Below are positions 3,588-46,686 of a stretch of 64,000 nt of DNA, in pieces; position 1 is the first letter of the stretch; each line of letters begins with the position of its first letter. Source of the stretch: Sphingomonas taxi (GTDB taxonomy: Bacteria > Pseudomonadota > Alphaproteobacteria > Sphingomonadales > Sphingomonadaceae); contig NZ_CP009571.1 of assembly GCF_000764535.1 (NCBI RefSeq), forward strand, positions 3,534,001-3,598,000, written 5' to 3'. A program made the position numbers and the translations under genes. The notes under the pieces were generated by a model that was not told where the DNA came from, ran no database searches, and saw only the letters and a list, made by a program, of their open reading frames with translations.

Positions 3588-4309
3588 GGCCGCCGCCCCT
3601 GGCCGTGGATCAGCAGGATCGCGAAATAGGGTGCGGTCTCGCCCGCCTCGGCGAGCGGGGTGACGCGTTCTTCCGGCATCGCGGCATATTCGACCAGCCA
3701 GGCCGCGTCGGTGCGCCCGGCGGCGGCGATCGCGCGGCGCAGCTTGGCGAGGTGGCGGCCGATCTTCATCACCACCAGCGCATCGGTATCGCGGATGCGG
3801 CGGGCCAGCTCCGCCTCGGGCAGCGTCGCGGTGGCGATGGTCAGCACGTCGTCGCCCCAGGTGATCGGCCGGTCGGTCGCGGTCCAGGCGCCCGACATGC
3901 CGGTGATCCCCGGCACGATCCGCACCGGCACGCGGCCGGCGAGCCGCGCATGCAGGTGCATGAACGATCCGTAGAAGAACGGATCGCCCTCGCACAGGAC
4001 CACCACGTCCTCGCCCGCTTCCGCCAGCGTGGCGAGATGCGCGGTGCAGTCGGCATAGAAGGCGGCGAGGCAGGCGTTATAGGCGGGGTCGGCGACGGCG
4101 ATCTCGGTGGTGACCGGATAGTCCATCGCATATTCGACCACGTCGGCACGCAACAGGCCGTCGACCAGCCGGCGGGCACGGCCGGCGCGACCCCGTTTGC
4201 GGAAATAGGCGAGGTGGCGCGCGCCGCGCACCAGCCGGTCGGCGCGCACGCTCATCAGGTCGGCGGCGCCGGGGCCGAGGCCGACGCCATGGATGGTGCC
4301 GGTCGTCAT
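3584..4309 (-). CDS. cobI: Precorrin-2 C20-methyltransferase
   Basis: SAM-dependent methyltransferase acting on C-20 of precorrin-2, the first dedicated step of the corrin branch; 241 residues. It begins MTTGTIHGVGLGPGAADLMS with the glycine-rich loop. It contains VVLCEGDPFFYGSFMHLHAR (the EGDP-FFYGS motif of CobI) and VRIVPGITGMSGAW. The start overlaps the cobH stop as ATGA (4306-4309) and the stop overlaps the cobJ start in the same way, so cobH-cobI-cobJ look translationally coupled. Confidence 0.95.
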   Translation of the reverse strand: MTTGTIHGVGLGPGAADLMSVRADRLVRGARHLAYFRKRGRAGRARRLVDGLLRADVVEYAMDYPVTTEIAVADPAYNACLAAFYADCTAHLATLAEAGEDVVVLCEGDPFFYGSFMHLHARLAGRVPVRIVPGITGMSGAWTATDRPITWGDDVLTIATATLPEAELARRIRDTDALVVMKIGRHLAKLRRAIAAAGRTDAAWLVEYAAMPEERVTPLAEAGETAPYFAILLIHGQGRRP

Positions 4310-4935
4310 TCGGCGCGGCTCGCCAGCGCGTTGACCGCGGCGACGGTGATCGCGCTGCCGCCGAGCCGCCCGGCGACGATCGCGCAGGGCACCGGCTGCT
4401 CGGCCCAGAGCGCGTCCTTCGACTCGCATGCACCGACGAAGCCGACCGGGCAGCCGATGATCGCCGCCGGGCGCGGGCAGGCGGGGTCGGCGAGCATATC
4501 GAGCAGGTGGAACAAGGCGGTCGGCGCGTTGCCGATCGCCACCACCGCGCCGGCGAGATGCGGCCGCCACAATTCCAGCGCGGCGGCGGAGCGGGTGTTG
4601 GCCATCGCCGCGGCGCGCGCCGGCACCTGCGGATCGTGCAGCGTGCAGATCACCGCATTGCCGGCGGGCAGGCGGGCGCGGGTGATGCCCTCGCTGACCA
4701 TGCGCGCGTCGCACAGGATCGGCGCCCCGTCGGCGAGCGCGGCGCGGGCGCGGGTCGCGAAGCCGGGCGAGAAGCGGATCGCGGCGGCGAGCTCGACCAG
4801 TCCGGCGGCATGGATCATCCGCACCGCGACCGGTTCCTCCTCGGGCGGAAAGCGGGCGAGATCGGCCTCGGCGCGGATGATGGCGAACGAGCGGCGATAG
4901 ATTGCGGCGCCGTCGGTTTCGTAGCTATGCGACAC
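4306..4935 (-). CDS. cobH: Precorrin-8X methylmutase
   Basis: Moves the C-11 methyl group to C-12, forming hydrogenobyrinate; 209 residues from the chosen start, the usual family length. It contains DGAAIYRRSFAIIRAEADL at the N terminus, GAPILCDARMVSEGITRARL in the middle and IGNAPTALFHLLD, all typical of CobH/CbiC. No ATG lies near the conserved N terminus. The best start is a GTG at 4935 inside the last codons of cobG, giving an 11-bp overlap. An upstream ATG would run through cobG sequence and add unrelated residues. Confidence 0.92.
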   Translation of the reverse strand: MSHSYETDGAAIYRRSFAIIRAEADLARFPPEEEPVAVRMIHAAGLVELAAAIRFSPGFATRARAALADGAPILCDARMVSEGITRARLPAGNAVICTLHDPQVPARAAAMANTRSAAALELWRPHLAGAVVAIGNAPTALFHLLDMLADPACPRPAAIIGCPVGFVGACESKDALWAEQPVPCAIVAGRLGGSAITVAAVNALASRAE

Positions 4936-6178
4936 GGGAAGGGCTTTCGAGCAGGGCGATGAGGTCGTCGGGCGACAGGCCGGCGACGGCGGCGGGATCG
5001 CCGGCACGGGCGTGGAAGGCGAGATCGAAACGGCCGTCGCGGCCGGTGGCAACGAAGTCGGCGGGGGCGGCGCGGGCGCAGCCCTTGGCGCATCCGGAGA
5101 CGTGCAGCCGCCCGGCGACGTGCGGCGCGAGACGCAGCGCGAGCGCGCGCGTCGCGACGGTCGCCTGCGGACAGGCGGGTGCGCCGACGCAGGCGTCGAC
5201 GGCGAGGTCCGCAGCCGCGCAGGCGGGGAGGCCGGCGGCGGTGGGATCGAGCCCCTCGACCAGCAAATTGCGCCACGGCGTCACGCGGATGCCGGTGACG
5301 CCGGCCCGGTCGGCGAGATCGGCGAGCATCGCCGCGTCGGCCCGGCCGAAGGGGAGGCCGATCGCGGTGCCTTGGGTAGGTCGTAGCGGATGCGTCTTGT
5401 GGTCCCCGGCGGAGGCGCGACCTTCGCGCAAGCCGACGCCATCCCCCGTTCTCCCGCGAAGGCGGGAGTCCAGGCCCCCGGACACCACAAGACGATGTCC
5501 TGCTTGGTCCTGTGCTCCCGCTTTCGCGGGAACACTGGGGGTGGTGGCACCCCCCGCGAGGTTCGCCGGCAACGGTACGACATGACGCGCCATTCGTCCC
5601 GCCGCGACGCCGCCGCTGGCGACGAACCACTCCGCCAGCGCGATCAGCGCCGTCGTTTCCTCGCCCGGCGTCAGCGCGTACCCACCGGCGCGGCCGTCGG
5701 CGCGCAGGATCAGCCCACCGGTCGCATCGCGTTCGATCCGGAAGTCGGCGGGACTGTCGGTCAACACCGGCTCGCGGCCGGCGTCGATCGCGATGCCGAT
5801 CTTGCCGGGCAGCGGCGGCAGCGCGTCGAGACGGTCGAGCAGCACGCAGGCGATGCGATGCGTGTCGTCGCTCTCCCGCCAGTCGGGCGCGACCAGCAGC
5901 GCGCGGGACTCGCGAACCGGATCGGGATCGACCAGCCCGGCGGCGACCAATGCGCCGAGCGCGACCGGCCAGTCCGCCTCGCGCAACCCGCGCAACTGGA
6001 GCGCGGCGCGGTTGGTGAGGTCGATCAGGCCATTGCCATGCGTGCGGGCCACCACGGCGATCGTCCGCGCCTGCGCCGGCGTCAGCCGGGCGAGCCGCGG
6101 GCGGACGCGCAGGATCAGCCCGTCGCCCGCCGCCATCGGCCGCCATGCGGTCGGGCACCAGCCACGCACGACGCTCAT
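4925..6178 (-). CDS. cobG: Precorrin-3B synthase with an in-frame repeat insertion
   Basis: Fe-S/siroheme-type monooxygenase-like enzyme that converts precorrin-2-derived intermediate (precorrin-3A) to precorrin-3B using oxygen, marking the aerobic route; 417 residues. It has two ferredoxin-reductase-like halves. The first includes RTHGNGLIDLTNRAALQLRG (residues 46-65). The second includes the cysteine cluster CVGAPACPQATV and HVSGCAKGCARAAPADF. Residues about 213-246, in the linker between the halves, are encoded by a palindromic A-family repeat (5446-5540) that keeps the frame open. The catalytic halves appear intact. The ATG overlaps the cobN stop as ATGA (6175-6178). Confidence 0.92.
   Translation of the reverse strand: MSVVRGWCPTAWRPMAAGDGLILRVRPRLARLTPAQARTIAVVARTHGNGLIDLTNRAALQLRGLREADWPVALGALVAAGLVDPDPVRESRALLVAPDWRESDDTHRIACVLLDRLDALPPLPGKIGIAIDAGREPVLTDSPADFRIERDATGGLILRADGRAGGYALTPGEETTALIALAEWFVASGGVAAGRMARHVVPLPANLAGGATTPSVPAKAGAQDQAGHRLVVSGGLDSRLRGRTGDGVGLREGRASAGDHKTHPLRPTQGTAIGLPFGRADAAMLADLADRAGVTGIRVTPWRNLLVEGLDPTAAGLPACAAADLAVDACVGAPACPQATVATRALALRLAPHVAGRLHVSGCAKGCARAAPADFVATGRDGRFDLAFHARAGDPAAVAGLSPDDLIALLESPSRVA
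5446..5540 (-). repeat. A-family palindromic element inside cobG (copy A1)
   Basis: About 95 bp. The left hairpin CTCCCGC-GAA-GGCGGGAG (5451-5468) and the right hairpin around GCTCCCGCTTTCGCGGGAAC (about 5513-5532) are inverted copies of each other. The spacer, read on the minus strand, contains ACAGGACCAAGCAGGACA, matching the spacer CCAGGGCCAAGCAGACAATA of the copy at 22.6 kb. It is oriented so that the same frame is open in cobG. The other four A copies in the window lie between genes. Confidence 0.88.
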
Positions 6179-9100
6179 GCCAGCGACGCCACAATGGCGT
6201 TGCGCCGCGTCGGCCACAGGCCCGAGCGATGCAGCGCGGCGAAGCGCGCCTCCATCGCGGCGAGCGCGGCGGGATTGGCGGCGGCGAGGAAGGCGCGCAC
6301 CGCGTCGCGGCCGAGCGTCGCGTCGTGATAAAGGTCGATCAGCTCCGGCGTCACGACGCGCGCGAGATGCGCGAAGGCGCCGAGATGGTCGAGCGTCGCG
6401 GCGATCTCGGCGGCGCCGCGGAAGCCGTGGCGCATCATGCCGTCGATCCACGCCGGCTGCGTCGCCCGGCCGCGGACGACGCGGGCGATCTCCTCGCGCA
6501 GGCTGCGCGCGCGCAGCCGCTCGGGATCGCGCGCATCGAGATGATAAAGCGCCGCCCGGCCGCCCGCGACCGCCTGCGCGGCGGCGAACCCCCCTTCGTG
6601 CGCGGCATAATCGGCGGCGAGCAGCAGGTCGCTTTCGGGCAGGTCCTGCAGATGGACGAAGGCGTCGGCGGCGGCGACGCGCGCGCGCAGGCCGGCGGCA
6701 TCGGCGCGCGCGTCGGTGTCGTCGAAGGCAAAGGACGATGCCGCCAGCCACGCCTCTCCCGCCGCGGTGCGTGCAGCGTCGGTATAGGTGTCCGCAGCCT
6801 CGCCCAAGCCGAGCCCGTACCGCCCCGGCGCCGGGCCATAGACGCGCGGCGCTGCGGCACGGCCGACGAACGGATTCCAATCGGCGGACTCGTCGCGCGC
6901 CGCCAGCGCCCGCACCGCCTGGCCGAACAGCGTGCAAAGCGGCCCGAACGTGTCGCGGAACAGGCCGGAGATGCGCAAGGTCACGTCGATCCGGGCCCGG
7001 TCGAGCAGCGCGAGCGGCAGGATGTCGACGCCGGTGACGCGATCGGAGCCGGTATCCCAGACCGGCGCGGCGCCGAGCAGGTGCAGCGCCATCGCGAATT
7101 CCTCGCCGGCGGTGCGCATCGTCGCCGATCCCCACAGATCGACCACCAAGCCGCGCGGATAGTCGCCGTGATCCTGAAGATGGCGGCGGATCAGTTCGTC
7201 GGCGAGCCGCTGGCCCTGCACATGCGCCGAGCGCGACGGCACCGCGCGCGGATCGACCGCGAACAGGTTGCGCCCGGTCGGCAGCACGTCGGTACGGCCG
7301 CGGTGCGGCGATCCCGCCGGGCCGGCGGCGACGCGGCGGCCGGCGAGCGCGGCGAGCAGTCCGTCGCGCTCCGCCGCGCCGCACGCGCCGCGTCCGAAGA
7401 CGTGCAGGCCGTCGCCGAAGCGGCTGTCCTTCACGTCGCAGACGAAAGCGTCGATGCGGGTGATCGCCTCGGCGGCGGTGGCCGCGCCGGCGAGATCGAG
7501 TTCGGCGGCGAGGCCGATCGCCTGCGCCTCCTCGGCGATGTCGCGCTGCAACCGGTCGCGCCGCGCCGGGTCGAGCCCGCCGGCATTGGAGAATTCGTCG
7601 AGCAGCGTCTCGATCCGCCCGAGACCCACGCCGCCGTCCGCCGCGATCATCGGCGGCGGCAGATGGCCGAGCGTCACCGCGGCGGTGCGGCGCTTGGCCT
7701 GCGCCGCCTCGCCGGGATCGTTGACGATGAACGGATAGAGGATCGGCAAGTACCCGGTCAGTGCCTCCGGCCAGCAGGCGTCGGACAGCGCCACCGCCTT
7801 GCCGGGCAGCCATTCGAGCGTGCCGTGCGCACCGATCTGGATCGCCGCATGGCACCCGCGGCTGCGCAGCCAGAGGTAGAAAGCAACATAGCCATGGCGG
7901 GGAACGCGCGACAGATCGTGATAATCGTCGGCGCGCGTCGCGGGCGTGCCGCGTTCGGGCTGGAGCGCGACCAGCGTCGCGCCGCGCAGCGTCGCGGCGA
8001 AGCGGAAGGCGCCGTCGGCGACCGCGGGATCATGCTCGGGCTCGCCCCAGGCTGCGGCGAGATCGTCGCGCAGCCCCGGCGGCAAGGCGGCGAGCGCGGC
8101 GCGATAGGCGACGACCGGCCAGCAGAGCCGCTCCGCCGCCAACGCCTCGGCCAGCGGCGCCCCGGCGGCGACCGCGTGCCCGACCGTGGCGAGATCGGCG
8201 AGCATCGCCTCGGCAGAGGCGAGCGCGTCGAGCCCGACCGCATGCGCCATCTGGTGGCTCTTGCCGGGATAGGTGGAGAGGATCAGCGCCAGCCGCCGCG
8301 CCGCCGGAGCGGTCCGCCCGAGCGAGACCCAGGCGGCGACGCGATCGGCGATCGCCGCGATGCGGGCGGGGTCGGCGCGATGCGCGCGGCGGGCGTAATC
8401 GAGATCGGGGTCGCGCACCGCATCCTGCTTGCAACTGGCGATCCCGGCGAAGATGCGACCGTCGACTTCGGGCAGGACGACATGCATTGCGAGATCGGCG
8501 GGCGACAGGCCGCGCGTGCTCTCGGCCCAGGCGGCCTGCGTCGAGGTGGCGAGCGCGACCTGGAAGACCGGCACGTCCGCGCCATCGAGCGGCGACTCGG
8601 TCTCGTCGCGCGCCGAGAAGGCGGTGGCGTTGACGATCGCGACCGGGGCCAGCGCCTTGACCCATCGTGCGATCCAGCCGCGCGCGTGCGCGTCCTTGAG
8701 CGACGGCGCGAACAGCGGGACGACGTCGAAGCCGCGCGCCGCCAGCGCCCCGGCGAGCGCTACGACCGGGTCGAGATCGGCGGCGAGCAGATAGGAGCGA
8801 TAGAAGGTGAGCAGCACCCGCGGCCGCGCCTCCGGTCGCATCGCGAGCGCCGCGGGGCAGGTGACGCCGTCCGCCTGCGTCCAGCCGCCGACCGGCGGAA
8901 CCGCACGCACGCCGCGTACCGGTCCCGCCGCCAGCCCCGCAGCGAGCGCGAGCTGCGCCAGCGCCGCCTGTGCAGCGACCGCGCCGCCGGTGTCGCACAA
9001 GGCGGCGAGCCGGCCGAGCGTCGAGCCTGGCACCGTCGAGGCGGCGGCCAGCGCGGCGTCCTCGCGCCCGTCGGCGGCGAGCACCGCCAGCGCGATGCCC

Positions 9101-9429
9101 TGCGCCCGCGCCAGCGCCTCGACCTGTTGCAGGCCATAGGACCAATAGGACCGCCCGCCGATCAGCCGAATCAGGATGCCCTTCGCGCCCGCCAGCGTCC
9201 GCTCGACATAGGTGTCGACCGACAGGGGATGCGCGAGATCAGCGAGGTTGGCGAGCCGCAGCGACGGCAACGGCACGCCGCCGCCGCGCGCGGCATGCCA
9301 GCCCGCGGCGAATGCGCCGAGGTCGCTGTCGGAGAAGGACAGGACGACGAGATCCGCCGGCCGCTGGCCGAGATCGCGCGGCGTCGCGGTCTCCTCCAGG
9401 CCGTGGCTCTCGCGGAAGACGACGTGCAT
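6175..9429 (-). CDS. cobN: Cobaltochelatase subunit CobN
   Basis: Large subunit of the ATP-dependent aerobic cobaltochelatase that inserts cobalt into hydrogenobyrinate a,c-diamide, acting with CobS and CobT (not in this window); 1084 residues. It contains family landmarks such as TYPGKSHQMAHAVGLDALAS, IQIGAHGTLEWLPGKAVALS, LPTGRNLFAVDPRAVPSRSA, LVVDLWGSATMRTAGEEFAM and NPFVGRAAAPRVYGPAPGRY. The length is a little short of the roughly 1100-1275 usual but both ends look natural. It starts 9 bp after cobW and its stop overlaps cobG as ATGA. Confidence 0.95.
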   Translation of the reverse strand: MHVVFRESHGLEETATPRDLGQRPADLVVLSFSDSDLGAFAAGWHAARGGGVPLPSLRLANLADLAHPLSVDTYVERTLAGAKGILIRLIGGRSYWSYGLQQVEALARAQGIALAVLAADGREDAALAAASTVPGSTLGRLAALCDTGGAVAAQAALAQLALAAGLAAGPVRGVRAVPPVGGWTQADGVTCPAALAMRPEARPRVLLTFYRSYLLAADLDPVVALAGALAARGFDVVPLFAPSLKDAHARGWIARWVKALAPVAIVNATAFSARDETESPLDGADVPVFQVALATSTQAAWAESTRGLSPADLAMHVVLPEVDGRIFAGIASCKQDAVRDPDLDYARRAHRADPARIAAIADRVAAWVSLGRTAPAARRLALILSTYPGKSHQMAHAVGLDALASAEAMLADLATVGHAVAAGAPLAEALAAERLCWPVVAYRAALAALPPGLRDDLAAAWGEPEHDPAVADGAFRFAATLRGATLVALQPERGTPATRADDYHDLSRVPRHGYVAFYLWLRSRGCHAAIQIGAHGTLEWLPGKAVALSDACWPEALTGYLPILYPFIVNDPGEAAQAKRRTAAVTLGHLPPPMIAADGGVGLGRIETLLDEFSNAGGLDPARRDRLQRDIAEEAQAIGLAAELDLAGAATAAEAITRIDAFVCDVKDSRFGDGLHVFGRGACGAAERDGLLAALAGRRVAAGPAGSPHRGRTDVLPTGRNLFAVDPRAVPSRSAHVQGQRLADELIRRHLQDHGDYPRGLVVDLWGSATMRTAGEEFAMALHLLGAAPVWDTGSDRVTGVDILPLALLDRARIDVTLRISGLFRDTFGPLCTLFGQAVRALAARDESADWNPFVGRAAAPRVYGPAPGRYGLGLGEAADTYTDAARTAAGEAWLAASSFAFDDTDARADAAGLRARVAAADAFVHLQDLPESDLLLAADYAAHEGGFAAAQAVAGGRAALYHLDARDPERLRARSLREEIARVVRGRATQPAWIDGMMRHGFRGAAEIAATLDHLGAFAHLARVVTPELIDLYHDATLGRDAVRAFLAAANPAALAAMEARFAALHRSGLWPTRRNAIVASLA

Positions 9430-9438
9430 CGTGGGGGC

Positions 9439-10482
9439 TCAGCCGTTCAGCACGGGCCCGATCGTCGCGGGGTCGATCCGGTCGCGCTCGGCGATCACGA
9501 CCAGCCGGGTAGCGCGCGCCTCGCCCGGCCGCCACGGCCGGTCGTATTGCGTCCGCACCCGCGCGCCGACCGCCTGGACGAGCAGCCGCATCGGCTTGCC
9601 GCGCACCGCCGCATAGCCCTTGACGCGCAACACGTCGGACTCGCGCGCGAGCCGTTCGATCCGCGCGACCAGATCGGCGGGATCGTCGATCTCGCCGATT
9701 TCGTGGACGAGGCTGTCGAAATCGTCGTGCTCATGCTCGTCCTCGCCGTCATGATGCGAGGGGCGGGCGGCGATGTCGTCCTCGGCGGCGGCATCGAGGC
9801 CGAGGATCACAGCCGGATCGATCACGCCGTCGACCAGCTCGACCACCGGCACCGGCCGCGGCGCCTCGGCGGCGATCACCGCGCGGGCGGCGGCGACGCC
9901 CTCCGGCCCGGCGAGGTCGGCCTTGGTCAGCAGCACCATGTCGGCACAGGCGAGCTGGTCCTCGAACACCTCCGCCAGCGGCGTCTCGTGGTCGATCCCC
10001 GGATCGGCGGCGCGCTGCGCGTCGAGCGCGGCGACATCGGTAGCGAAGCGACCGGCGGCGACCGCCTCGGCGTCGGCCAGCGCGATGACGCCGTCGACGG
10101 TGATGCGCGAGCGGATCGCCGGCCAGTCGAACGCCTTCAGCAACGGCTTGGGCAGCGCGAGCCCGGAGGTTTCGATGAGGATATGGTCGGGGCGCGGGTC
10201 GAGCGCGAGCAAGGTCTCCACCGTCGGGATGAAATCGTCGGCGACGGTGCAGCAGATGCAGCCATTGGCCAGCTCGACGACATTCTCCGCCGGGCAATCG
10301 GGGATCGCGCAGCCCTTCAGGATGTCGCCGTCGACACCCAAGGTGCCGAATTCGTTGACCACCACCGCGAGCCGGCGGCCGTTGGCGTTGCGGATCAGAT
10401 GGCTGATCAGCGTCGTCTTGCCGGCGCCAAGGAAGCCGGTGACAATGGTGACGGGGATCTTGGCGAGCTGTGGATCGGCCAC
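9439..10482 (-). CDS. cobW: CobW-family GTP-binding metal chaperone
   Basis: G3E-family P-loop GTPase associated with cobalamin synthesis, thought to supply cobalt to the chelatase; 347 residues. It has Walker A GFLGAGKTT (about residues 16-24), the metal-binding CxCC motif in NGCICCTVADD, a histidine/acid-rich loop HHDGEDEHEHDD and a C-terminal CobW domain. The start is taken as GTG at 10482, preceded by AAGGAA about 7 bases upstream on the minus strand. An in-frame ATG further upstream (10632) would add about 50 unconserved residues from the leader. First gene behind the cobalamin riboswitch. Confidence 0.93.
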   Translation of the reverse strand: MADPQLAKIPVTIVTGFLGAGKTTLISHLIRNANGRRLAVVVNEFGTLGVDGDILKGCAIPDCPAENVVELANGCICCTVADDFIPTVETLLALDPRPDHILIETSGLALPKPLLKAFDWPAIRSRITVDGVIALADAEAVAAGRFATDVAALDAQRAADPGIDHETPLAEVFEDQLACADMVLLTKADLAGPEGVAAARAVIAAEAPRPVPVVELVDGVIDPAVILGLDAAAEDDIAARPSHHDGEDEHEHDDFDSLVHEIGEIDDPADLVARIERLARESDVLRVKGYAAVRGKPMRLLVQAVGARVRTQYDRPWRPGEARATRLVVIAERDRIDPATIGPVLNG

Positions 10483-10676
10483 GGATGTTCCTTCGCGAGC
10501 GCCGCGACGACGAGAACACGGTGGGGCCACATATCGCCGATGCGCGAGCGACGGACGGGCGCTTCGCATGTCGCCCGCGCCACGCACCGATGCGGGCCAA
10601 CCGCATGGGTCTTCGTCGCTCAGACGGAACACCGTGCCCCGGCCATCCCCTGGACCGAAGCAAGAGCGACCCTATC

Positions 10677-10875
10677 GCCGGCAGGTTTCCTGGCTCGCGG
10701 GTCGTCGCTCGGGGCACGGCCTTCCCGGGTCGGGCGAACCCTTGCCAGTGGCCGCCTTCCCGCGGGGGAAGGCATGTGTCCGTCGCTCGCCGCTTACAGT
10801 TGCAGGGACAGCCGCGGCATTGGAGCCGAGGCCCCGCACCGCATTCCCATTTACGCCCTCTTGCGAAGGGCACCG
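10677..10875 (-). promoter_or_regulatory. Cobalamin (B12) riboswitch
   Basis: Read on the minus strand, the ordered hallmarks of the class are all present: GGTGCCC followed by AAGAGGG, then GCGGCTGTCCCTGCAACTGT with GTAAGCGGCGAGC. The B12-box core GCCACTG lies at about 10755-10763, then GGGAAGGC, then CGAGCCAGGAAACCTGCCGG at the 3' end. It lies about 195 bases before the cobW start, leaving room for an expression platform. It should repress cobW-cobN-cobG-cobH-cobI-cobJ when adenosylcobalamin is plentiful (known behaviour of the class). Confidence 0.96.
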
Positions 10876-10911
10876 ACGCGATCATGGCACCGGGAACCGG
10901 CGCCGCCGGTC

Positions 10912-10940
10912 GACTTAGCCGCTACCGCCGGCTTTGCCAA
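10912..10940 (-). promoter_or_regulatory. Candidate promoter of the riboswitch-led cob transcript
   Basis: On the minus strand, TTGGCA (10940-10935) and TAAGTC (10917-10912) are separated by 17 bases and lie about 35 bp before the riboswitch. The -35 matches the housekeeping consensus at 4 of 6 positions and the -10 at 3 of 6. Placement is the main argument. Confidence 0.4.
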
Positions 10941-10971
10941 TCGCGCAGGCGGGGGCAGACGGCGATCGCTG

Positions 10972-10987
10972 TGTACGGTTTCGTACA
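10972..10987. promoter_or_regulatory. Perfect 6-4-6 palindrome upstream of the cob leader
   Basis: TGTACG, spacer GTTT, then CGTACA: a perfect inverted repeat about 30 bp upstream of the candidate cob promoter, within the 250-bp gap between the riboswitch and the response regulator stop. It could be an operator. I cannot name a regulator, and only one copy was noticed. Confidence 0.35.
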
Positions 10988-11131
10988 TAGCCCGTTTCCG
11001 GTCGACTTGCCGCCGTTAACCATTAGAGCCCGTGCGCAGCAGGAAGGGTTCTCCCGATCCTTCGTGTGCAGTTCTCCAGGACTGTCGGAGCCGTCGCCGC
11101 ATCATGCCGGTGGCGGCTCCACCCCGCCCCG

Positions 11132-14074: not shown

Positions 14075-15492
<1,418 letters not shown>

Positions 15493-22636: not shown

Positions 22637-22733
22637 GCACCGTGTTCCTGCGAAAGCAGGAACCCAGGGCCAAGCAGACAATACCTTACGGTGTTCGGGA
22701 CTCCTGGGCTCCTGCGTTCGCAGGAGCACTGGT
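22637..22733. repeat. A-family palindromic element (copy A3)
   Basis: In the 309-bp gap 22579-22887. Hairpin GTTCCTGC-GAA-AGCAGGAAC, spacer CCAGGGCCAAGCAGACAATA, then GGCTCCTGCGTTCGCAGGAG. Same orientation as the cobG copy read on its coding strand, and open in the corresponding frame. Confidence 0.88.
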
Positions 22734-30762: not shown

Positions 30763-30952
30763 GTCACCCCGGGTTCCTTCGAGTGGTCCGCGGGAGTCCG
30801 CATTACCAGTGAAGCAACACAGTGCTCCTGCGAAAGCAGGAGCCTAGGGCCAAGCAGAGCAACGTATCCTTGCGCTCGGGACTCCTGGGCTCCTGCTTTC
30901 GCAGGAGCACTGGGACAGTTTTACAGAGGTTTCGAACAATTCCGCGGTGACG
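30763..30952. repeat. A-family element (A4) nested within B-like ends
   Basis: Accounts for most of the 316-bp gap 30710-31025. The A core is 30819-30914 (GCTCCTGC-GAA-AGCAGGAGC; spacer TAGGGCCAAGCAGAGCAACG; GGCTCCTGCTTTCGCAGGAG). It is flanked by GTCACCCCGGGTTCCTTCGA (30763) on the left and CCGCGGTGAC (30943-30952) on the right, which look like the ends of a B element. Confidence 0.82.
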
Positions 30953-31959: not shown

Positions 31960-32176
31960 GTCACCCCGGGCTCGACCCGGGGTCCCGCTTTTCGCGGTGT
32001 AGCCCGGCTTGAGTCGATACCTTCGCGGAATTCTATCAGTGCTCCCGCGCAGGCGGGAGCCCAGGAGTCGCGGACGCTATGAGATGGTATTGTGCGTGGC
32101 CCTAGGTTCCCGCCTGCGCGGGAACACTTTAGGGGGCAACGACTTTCAAAAGCGGCTCGCCCAAGTCCGGGGTGAC
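31960..32176. repeat. A-family element (A5) nested within B-like ends
   Basis: Fills the 288-bp gap 31929-32216. The A core (32036-32130, GCTCCCGC-GCA-GGCGGGAGC ... GGTTCCCGCCTGCGCGGGAA, spacer TGTGCGTGGCCCTAGG) is in the opposite orientation to A3. Left flank GTCACCCCGGGCTCGACCCG-GGGTCCCGC from 31960; right flank AAGTCCGGGGTGAC ending at 32175. Confidence 0.82.
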
Positions 32177-38257: not shown

Positions 38258-38350
38258 TTGTCATCCCCGCGAAGGCGGGGATCCAGACGCGCAGGTCCCC
38301 GACTGAGCCGGAACGTCAGCGTCTATGGATCCCCGCCTCCGCGGGGATGA
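38258..38350. repeat. C-family palindromic element (copy C1)
   Basis: Arms TCATCCCCGCGAAGGCGGGG-ATCCAGACG and CGTCTATGGATCCCCGCC-TCCGCGGGGATGACA with a spacer CGCAGGTCCCCGACTGAGCC. A sister copy lies at 46.6 kb. It lies in the 370-bp gap 38232-38601. Confidence 0.88.
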
Positions 38351-38442
38351 CAGACATGGGGTGGACGCGTAGGCCCGCACCGGTGGGTCTGCTGATCGTG
38401 CGGCGAGTTCGTCGCCGCCGGCATCTGTCACCACCCCTCCTG

Positions 38443-38547
38443 TCGTCATCCCGGCGAACGCCGGGACCCATGGATACGATGACGTAGGCGGTAGTGTTCC
38501 CCGCCAGCCGCCCGCAACCATGGGTCCCGGCGTTCGCCGGGATGACG
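38443..38547. repeat. C-like palindromic element, variant (C3)
   Basis: Same gap as C1 but with a different core: CGTCATCCCGGCGAACGCCG-GGACCCATGG and CCATGGGTCCCGGCGTTCGC-CGGGATGACG, almost perfect inverted arms around a 55-bp spacer. The outer TCATCCC ends are shared with the C family, so it may be a subfamily. Confidence 0.85.
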
Positions 38548-46591: not shown

Positions 46592-46686
46592 CCGTCATCC
46601 CCGCGCAGGTGGGGATCCAGACGCGCAGGTCGGGCTTGGGCCGCAACCTCAGCGTATATGGATCCCCGCCTGCGCGGGGAGGACAT
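46592..46686. repeat. C-family palindromic element (copy C2)
   Basis: Between the RND pump and the DUF445 gene. GTCATCCCCGCGCAGGTGGG-GATCCAGACG ... TATATGGATCCCCGCCTGC-GCGGGGAGGAC; the spacer CGCAGGTCGGGCTTGGGCCG matches C1 for the first eight bases. The right end differs at one base from the left-arm complement. Confidence 0.85.

Follow-up and report, generated by a model that had tools for sequence, protein, structure and literature searches.

The cobG gene of Sphingomonas taxi carries a two-hairpin REP dimer that keeps the reading frame and sits in the linker joining both halves of the CobG protein; the insertion is real, it is old rather than recent, and the linkers of a sister lineage are repeat-derived as well. 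It is probable that this REP dimer has been tolerated in the linker as a neutral addition, neutral insertion being the most likely reading and a tolerated insertion in the linker the simplest account of the evidence. Positions given below refer to the window, i.e., the whole stretch of 64,000 nucleotides that was analysed. The gene and its neighbours are arranged as follows.

4925 to 6178, minus strand: cobG (precorrin-3B synthase-like, 417 aa), between cobN and cobH, containing the REP dimer; Pfam NIR_SIR_ferr, best match NCBIfam TIGR02435
6175 to 9429, minus strand: cobN, overlapping the start of cobG; above its family cut-off
4306 to 4935, minus strand: cobH (precorrin-8X methylmutase), overlapping the end of cobG; above its family cut-off
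5078 to 5191, minus strand: stretch of cobG with cysteines 330, 336, 363 and 367, in frame, downstream of the element

The reading frame of cobG (4925-6178) is open over its whole length, with no stop. The name CobG rests on the best family match and on the position in the operon; TIGR02435 matches residues 5-376 with 199.1 bits, short of the curated cut-off of 234.8, and the S. melonis protein, with 186.8 bits, likewise remains under it. The cysteines C330, C336, C363 and C367 (C-x5-C plus C-x3-C) do not vary across 50 aligned CobG proteins, and a PDB sequence search with CobG matched six nitrite reductases, in the C half only. The host genome (4.06 Mb, 3 contigs) is listed as 100% complete, and the named genomes nearest to it by cobG are Sphingomonas. 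An open frame of 1624 aa that runs antisense to cobN (6145-11019, plus strand) is probably a by-product of high GC content. Two of the homologs, P0020 (587 aa) and P0055 (590 aa), are both listed with PF03460 and PF02570; we take the PF02570 part to be a CobH/CbiC-type domain and these proteins to be apparent CobG fusions.

A sequence-only reading of this DNA had described a palindrome at 5446-5540, within cobG and free of stops, and this was borne out: the stretch corresponds to residues 213-245, preserves the frame and belongs to the linker that connects the CobG halves, as that reading had placed it. A covariance model (R1), for which 31 copies from the same genome were used and the cobG copy was left out, matches it on the two strands at 5447-5535 and 5448-5536 (77.9 and 80.0 bits), and in the search of the whole genome the cobG copy has an E value of 1.5e-14.

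5446 to 5538, minus strand: two-hairpin REP dimer (A family, REPIN-like), profile match, in frame as cobG residues 214-245
5516 to 5531, no strand assigned: first hairpin in gene order, TCCCGC-NNNN-GCGGGA (G000:C1:3539516-3539531)
5452 to 5467, no strand assigned: second hairpin in gene order, TCCCGC-NNNN-GCGGGA (G000:C1:3539452-3539467)
5408 to 5438, minus strand: linker sequence just 3' of the element, matching the sequence just 3' of the worn S. melonis copy (local score 16)

Elements of this family are about 95 bp long and contain two GC-rich hairpins with CAGTG-like outer ends and CCCAGG-like inner tails; the hairpins have 8-bp stems and 4-nt loops and are paired in inverted orientation with a spacer between them, their starts lying 62-66 nt apart in the copies compared. 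An 11-base inverted match to the middle of the element near 5390-5400 was considered as a second element and rejected by eye; the P0002 and P0003 proteins have THPPRP at that place without an element.

Genome-wide, R1 detects at least 75 copies (at least 150 strand matches). The window has four more copies, matched by the model and placed between genes by the gene calls.

15399 to 15488, no strand assigned: intergenic family copy
22642 to 22730, no strand assigned: intergenic family copy
30822 to 30911, no strand assigned: intergenic family copy
32039 to 32128, no strand assigned: intergenic family copy

It had been claimed that the copy at 22.6 kb is open in the matching frame, where indeed it reads VPAKAGTQGQADNTLR, and that the copies at 15.4 and 30.8 kb have TAG at that place, which they do. 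An open frame through a family copy is by itself unremarkable, since 345 of 465 readings are free of stops (155 of 162 orientations scored in 3 frames each, the other 7, in which the arm motif was not found, being dropped). The description of the element as otherwise intergenic also held outside the window: in a profile scan of 64 own-genome loci, 80 of 81 copies lie between genes and the cobG copy is the sole one inside a gene, genes having been called with a home-made codon-usage script. Two further loci (L100 and L101) were scanned, yielded no two-hairpin copy and are not part of this count. The coding density of the 64 loci is 0.83, and the chance of one copy or none falling in a gene under independent random placement is about 2e-60; therefore, a copy that lands in a gene is presumably eliminated in most cases. 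A further four genomes from the genus, picked for strong matches and covered in the surroundings of their best-listed copies, gave a similar picture, with all 71 copies intergenic in the loci examined (31, 8, 7 and 25). Old copies in genes are undercounted in these scans, because the worn cobG copy of S. melonis (L102) was scanned and still fell below the threshold. A crude frame score (30/33 copies) had put forward two further loci, L080 and L097, as intragenic copies; the ORF lists and gene calls place both outside genes, and they were rejected.

A DNA search detected relatives of the element in 162 of 294 genomes, the present one included. PF01797 (Y1_Tnp, RAYT) has no match in the own genome; it matches in 5 of 14 control genomes and in 32 of the 294 genomes of the genus. 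A search of Rfam returned one microRNA match, below threshold. Some arrangements of the repeats were observed in passing. Five copies of the element stand head to tail with a 155-bp period between called genes (L095:1563-2319; G000:C1 2671862-2672618). Two shortened copies of 79 and 80 nt, compared with about 89, lie less than 500 bp apart (L155:1487-1565 and 1870-1949) and possibly form a sub-family. A second, related repeat type is present in the window at 38258-38353, 38446-38546 and 46595-46684, the latter two as weaker model matches (36.3 and 30.4 bits). Its copy at 38258, between called genes, has the ends GTCATCCCCGC...GCGGGGATGAC, which we take to be close to those of a published CGTC-type REP.

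The linker was compared, between the motifs GRMARH and FGR, in 153 CobG proteins (the best 120 of 1474 and the best 120 of 1821 matches, which overlap, plus P0121 of S. melonis). It measures 27-43 aa in 148 of the 153, a count that includes P0016, with 40 aa read through a broken frame. The five linkers longer than 50 aa, i.e., those of the window protein P0001 (77 aa), P0004 (69), P0006 (67), P0005 (59) and P0121 (59), all belong to one clade and match translated repeats. When the 153 proteins were compared with translations of the 60 best-scoring own copies, excluding the cobG copy, the six best were P0121 (102), P0001 (94), P0016 (89), P0005 (83), P0004 (73) and P0006 (62), all matching at the linker; the next score, 54, fell elsewhere in the protein. 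In a shuffle test of 14 linkers (60 shuffles each, peptides from all own copies save that of cobG), the scores of P0001, P0004, P0005 and P0006 were reached by none of the 60 shuffles, and those of the other ten, including P0002 and P0003, by 3 to 54. At the DNA level, R1 was run on 42 of 70 cobG loci, giving 80.0 bits for the own gene, 29.4 bits (E 1.2e-4) for S. melonis and 11.7 bits for the next; a profile run on all 70 loci, in which some genomes figure twice (S. melonis, for example, as L010 and L039), pointed to the same two places (S. melonis E 0.012), everything else having E of 2.9 or worse. These matches indicate a repeat-derived linker from the DNA in S. melonis, where the copy is worn yet of full length, and from the protein in P0004, P0005 and P0006. 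The sequence-only reading had proposed an alignment with related CobG proteins as a check; 148 of the 153 examined have a linker of 43 aa or less. The contrary outcome that it had named, the same linker in all close homologs, is found in part: of the six other clade members in the tree, four do carry such a linker, and P0002 and P0003 do not. The P0002 linker, of 43 aa, is to be compared with about 45 aa for the window linker minus the element (hand count).

In a CobG tree computed without the linker (29 rows: P0001-P0031 minus P0016, P0026 and P0027, plus S. melonis; P0026 and P0027 failed the motif used for cutting out the linker), this clade of seven members has support of 100/99. It is divided into P0001 + P0002 + P0003 (99/91) and P0004 + P0006 + P0005 + S. 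melonis (98/94), so that five of the seven members have a repeat-derived linker and the two closest full-length relatives of the window protein have none. The sequence-only reading had expected a recent insertion, and this is not borne out, the cobG copy being among the most diverged of the family in its own genome. In 44 conserved columns it shows 5 mismatches, compared with 11 for the copy of S. melonis. Among the 80 other own-genome copies, 78 have fewer than 5, and only two, with 6 and 13, exceed it. By this measure the window copy appears old for its family. The distance between the window and S. melonis cobG genes at fourfold sites is 0.362; for an insertion dating back to the split, 7.4 mismatches would be expected per lineage at d 0.19, and the probability of 5 or fewer is 0.23.

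The history of the insertion may be read in two ways. The sequence 3' of the element matches in the window and in S. melonis (score 16, reached by none of 2000 shuffles), so the insertion sites coincide within about 8 nt. However, the frames differ, the window reading VPAKAG... and the S. melonis branch CS...W(A/P)...AG-like peptides. Two separate insertions are slightly favoured over one ancestral insertion, because the frames differ and because the P0002 linker is near-empty. To a single insertion in the ancestor of the seven-member clade, which then decayed in frame on the way to S. melonis, changed frame through compensating indels on the window branch and was lost in P0002 and P0003, we would give somewhat less than an even chance. 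It agrees with sites placed so close together by the flank match and with the ages, 5 and 11 mismatches being compatible with the 7.4 expected; against this, the different frames of the two branches would call for the compensating indels, and the P0002 linker looks like an empty site. It is a variant within the account of a REP-dimer insertion, not a rival from outside.

Whether one insertion or two, the insertion of the REP dimer would have kept the frame of cobG, and the element would have persisted in a linker that tolerates extra residues, its translation adding some 32 neutral residues. In the S. melonis branch the linker would also have been struck, either separately or through an insertion in the common ancestor that P0002 and P0003 have since lost, and in S. 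melonis, where the hairpins have decayed and the frame has been kept, the repeat would by now be ordinary linker coding sequence. We infer that the peptide is translated and neutral and that the linker is flexible, just as we infer the mode by which the element moves; judging from the alignments, the linker would be a tolerant stretch joining the two halves.

This account has to be weighed against P0016, a protein from one metagenome contig of 1153 bp, 97% identical to the window protein over 53% of the query. It leaves the frame within the element and follows the other frame to a stop, apparently because of one base in the first hairpin, and may be either a genuine null allele or a product of faulty assembly. 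The in-frame state may therefore not be stable, as P0016 goes out of frame within the element. The possibility that the frame is broken, raised by the sequence-only reading with regard to a verified assembly, was encountered only in P0016, that is, in one unverified metagenome contig known by its protein. The same observation bears on three other readings. One would make the palindrome in the cobG linker a frame-switching hotspot, in which indels in the hairpins switch cobG off and on; this is quite unlikely, and if true it would explain both the different frames of the sister lineages and the apparent one-base break of P0016 in the first hairpin. Hairpins invite miscalled indels, and the difference of P0016 in the first hairpin, apparently of one base as judged from the protein, would also suit an artefact of sequencing or assembly that hides a frame-shifted gene in the strain. 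The loop of the cobG copy in the window, however, has the 4 nt of its family, the genome is complete as listed, in its 3 contigs, and the P0001 cluster (90% identity) has 10 member sequences on 3 contigs, weak support given that the cluster may include the own record; we consider an artefact very improbable.

The third reading, according to which cobG is decaying towards a pseudogene and the insertion has no part in this, could likewise draw on P0016, as well as on the position of the window CobG under the TIGR02435 cut-off and on slightly more frequent changes in the C half. Of the three sisters, P0001 alone has changed in 8 of 198 columns of the N half and in 11 of 141 columns of the C half (Fisher P 0.16), which hints weakly at relaxed constraint. 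Decay is nevertheless unlikely: the window gene has no stop and retains the four cysteines, its neighbours cobN and cobH are above their family cut-offs, the CobG of S. melonis is under the cut-off too, and the P0001 branch is of ordinary length (0.055 compared with 0.059 and 0.037), i.e., not long.

A selected function of the repeat-encoded peptide in CobG would be in line with repeat-derived linkers that are open in five lineages and with a weak third-position excess in S. melonis. Compared with its 20 nearest copies (minimum of 85 aligned bases), the S. melonis copy shows mean differences of 6.9, 7.5 and 12.8 by codon position, and with the two tied nearest copies the excess has P 0.19 and P 0.03; the excess is weak, and high-GC codon bias may contribute to it. 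The window copy, with 5.9, 7.0 and 7.7, has little third-position excess. Against a function, the two frames yield unrelated peptides, P0002 and P0003 manage without any, and the linker changes faster than its surroundings, P0005 and P0121 of S. melonis differing at 8 of 59 linker positions, compared with 14 of 199 positions before it and 2 of 141 after it; such a role is very unlikely, and a tolerated, neutral insertion remains the preferred reading.

Among known repeats, the published CGTC-type REPs are nearer relatives of the element than the palindromic elements of Rickettsia. S. alaskensis and E. lithoralis, from which REPs within ORFs have been published, are sphingomonads. According to passages of one report (PMC3733652), CGTC-type REPs predominate in alphaproteobacteria; REPs are mostly intergenic and sometimes lie within ORFs, where linkers and loops were suggested as harmless places; in S. 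alaskensis and E. lithoralis, the ORFs that contain REPs encode tRNA synthetases and tRNA pseudouridine synthase B, the passage giving no REP type, and recB of X. campestris and X. oryzae carries REPs at about the same site. The cobG case is thus of a known kind, because REPs within ORFs, sphingomonads included, have already been published (PMC3733652). In structure, the 8-9 bp stem, 4-5 nt loop and CCA tail of CGTC-type REPs resemble the 8-bp stem, 4-nt loop and CCCAGG of the element, and in those passages they too occur as paired units with a spacer, mostly intergenic and sometimes in ORFs (PMC3733652). The element differs in its outer ends, which are CAGTG/CACTG-like and lack the CGTC tag. 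CGTC-type REPs are described there as head-to-head dimers without a linked transposase, and the element is seen in inverted pairs in a genome without a Y1_Tnp match; relative to the cases in those passages, it is set apart by its target cobG, the worn copy in a sister lineage and the two reading frames. REPINs, as described in parts of PMC3116915, likewise combine two inverted REPs with a spacer, able to fold together, in many dispersed and mainly extragenic copies (in SBW25, of the 1,067 16-mers with the highest abundance, 14 overlap genes); the element differs from them in that its own genome has no match to Y1_Tnp (RAYT). In the titles, abstract openings and passages of the literature consulted, neither a CAGTG-ended family nor a case in cobG is mentioned, which does not prove their absence.

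The resemblance to Rickettsia palindromic elements, the best-known example of palindromes within genes, which the sequence-only reading had evoked, holds for the outcome: a palindrome of about the same length is read in frame within a conserved enzyme (PMC10969869, PMC2229807 and PMC3767692, in the parts seen). Those elements occur in Rickettsia or Wolbachia. The resemblance does not hold for the distribution: according to a review excerpt, close to half of the R. conorii elements in the first report lay in ORFs (PMC10969869), compared with 1 of 81 copies here and none of 71 in the four other genomes (in a scan that misses worn copies), and with a Sphingomonas host, membership of the Rickettsia elements was rejected. 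According to the same partial sources, Rickettsia orthologs have inserts at the same place and hotspot versus common origin is debated there too; the Rickettsia elements enter many genes, whereas the present family is found in one gene of its own genome, in two frames in two lineages. An excerpt on the Rickettsia guanylate kinase reports that the enzyme with an insert is active, with changed substrate affinity (PMC2229807).

The insertion in cobG is therefore ordinary in kind, and its history is unusually legible. The stages through which a palindrome becomes protein may be followed in a single gene, with hairpins intact in the window, worn but open in the sister lineage, absent in two relatives and seemingly broken in frame in one strain. 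If this is borne out, the distinction between a tolerated and a useful insertion would become testable in one enzyme through a natural comparison of proteins with and without it.
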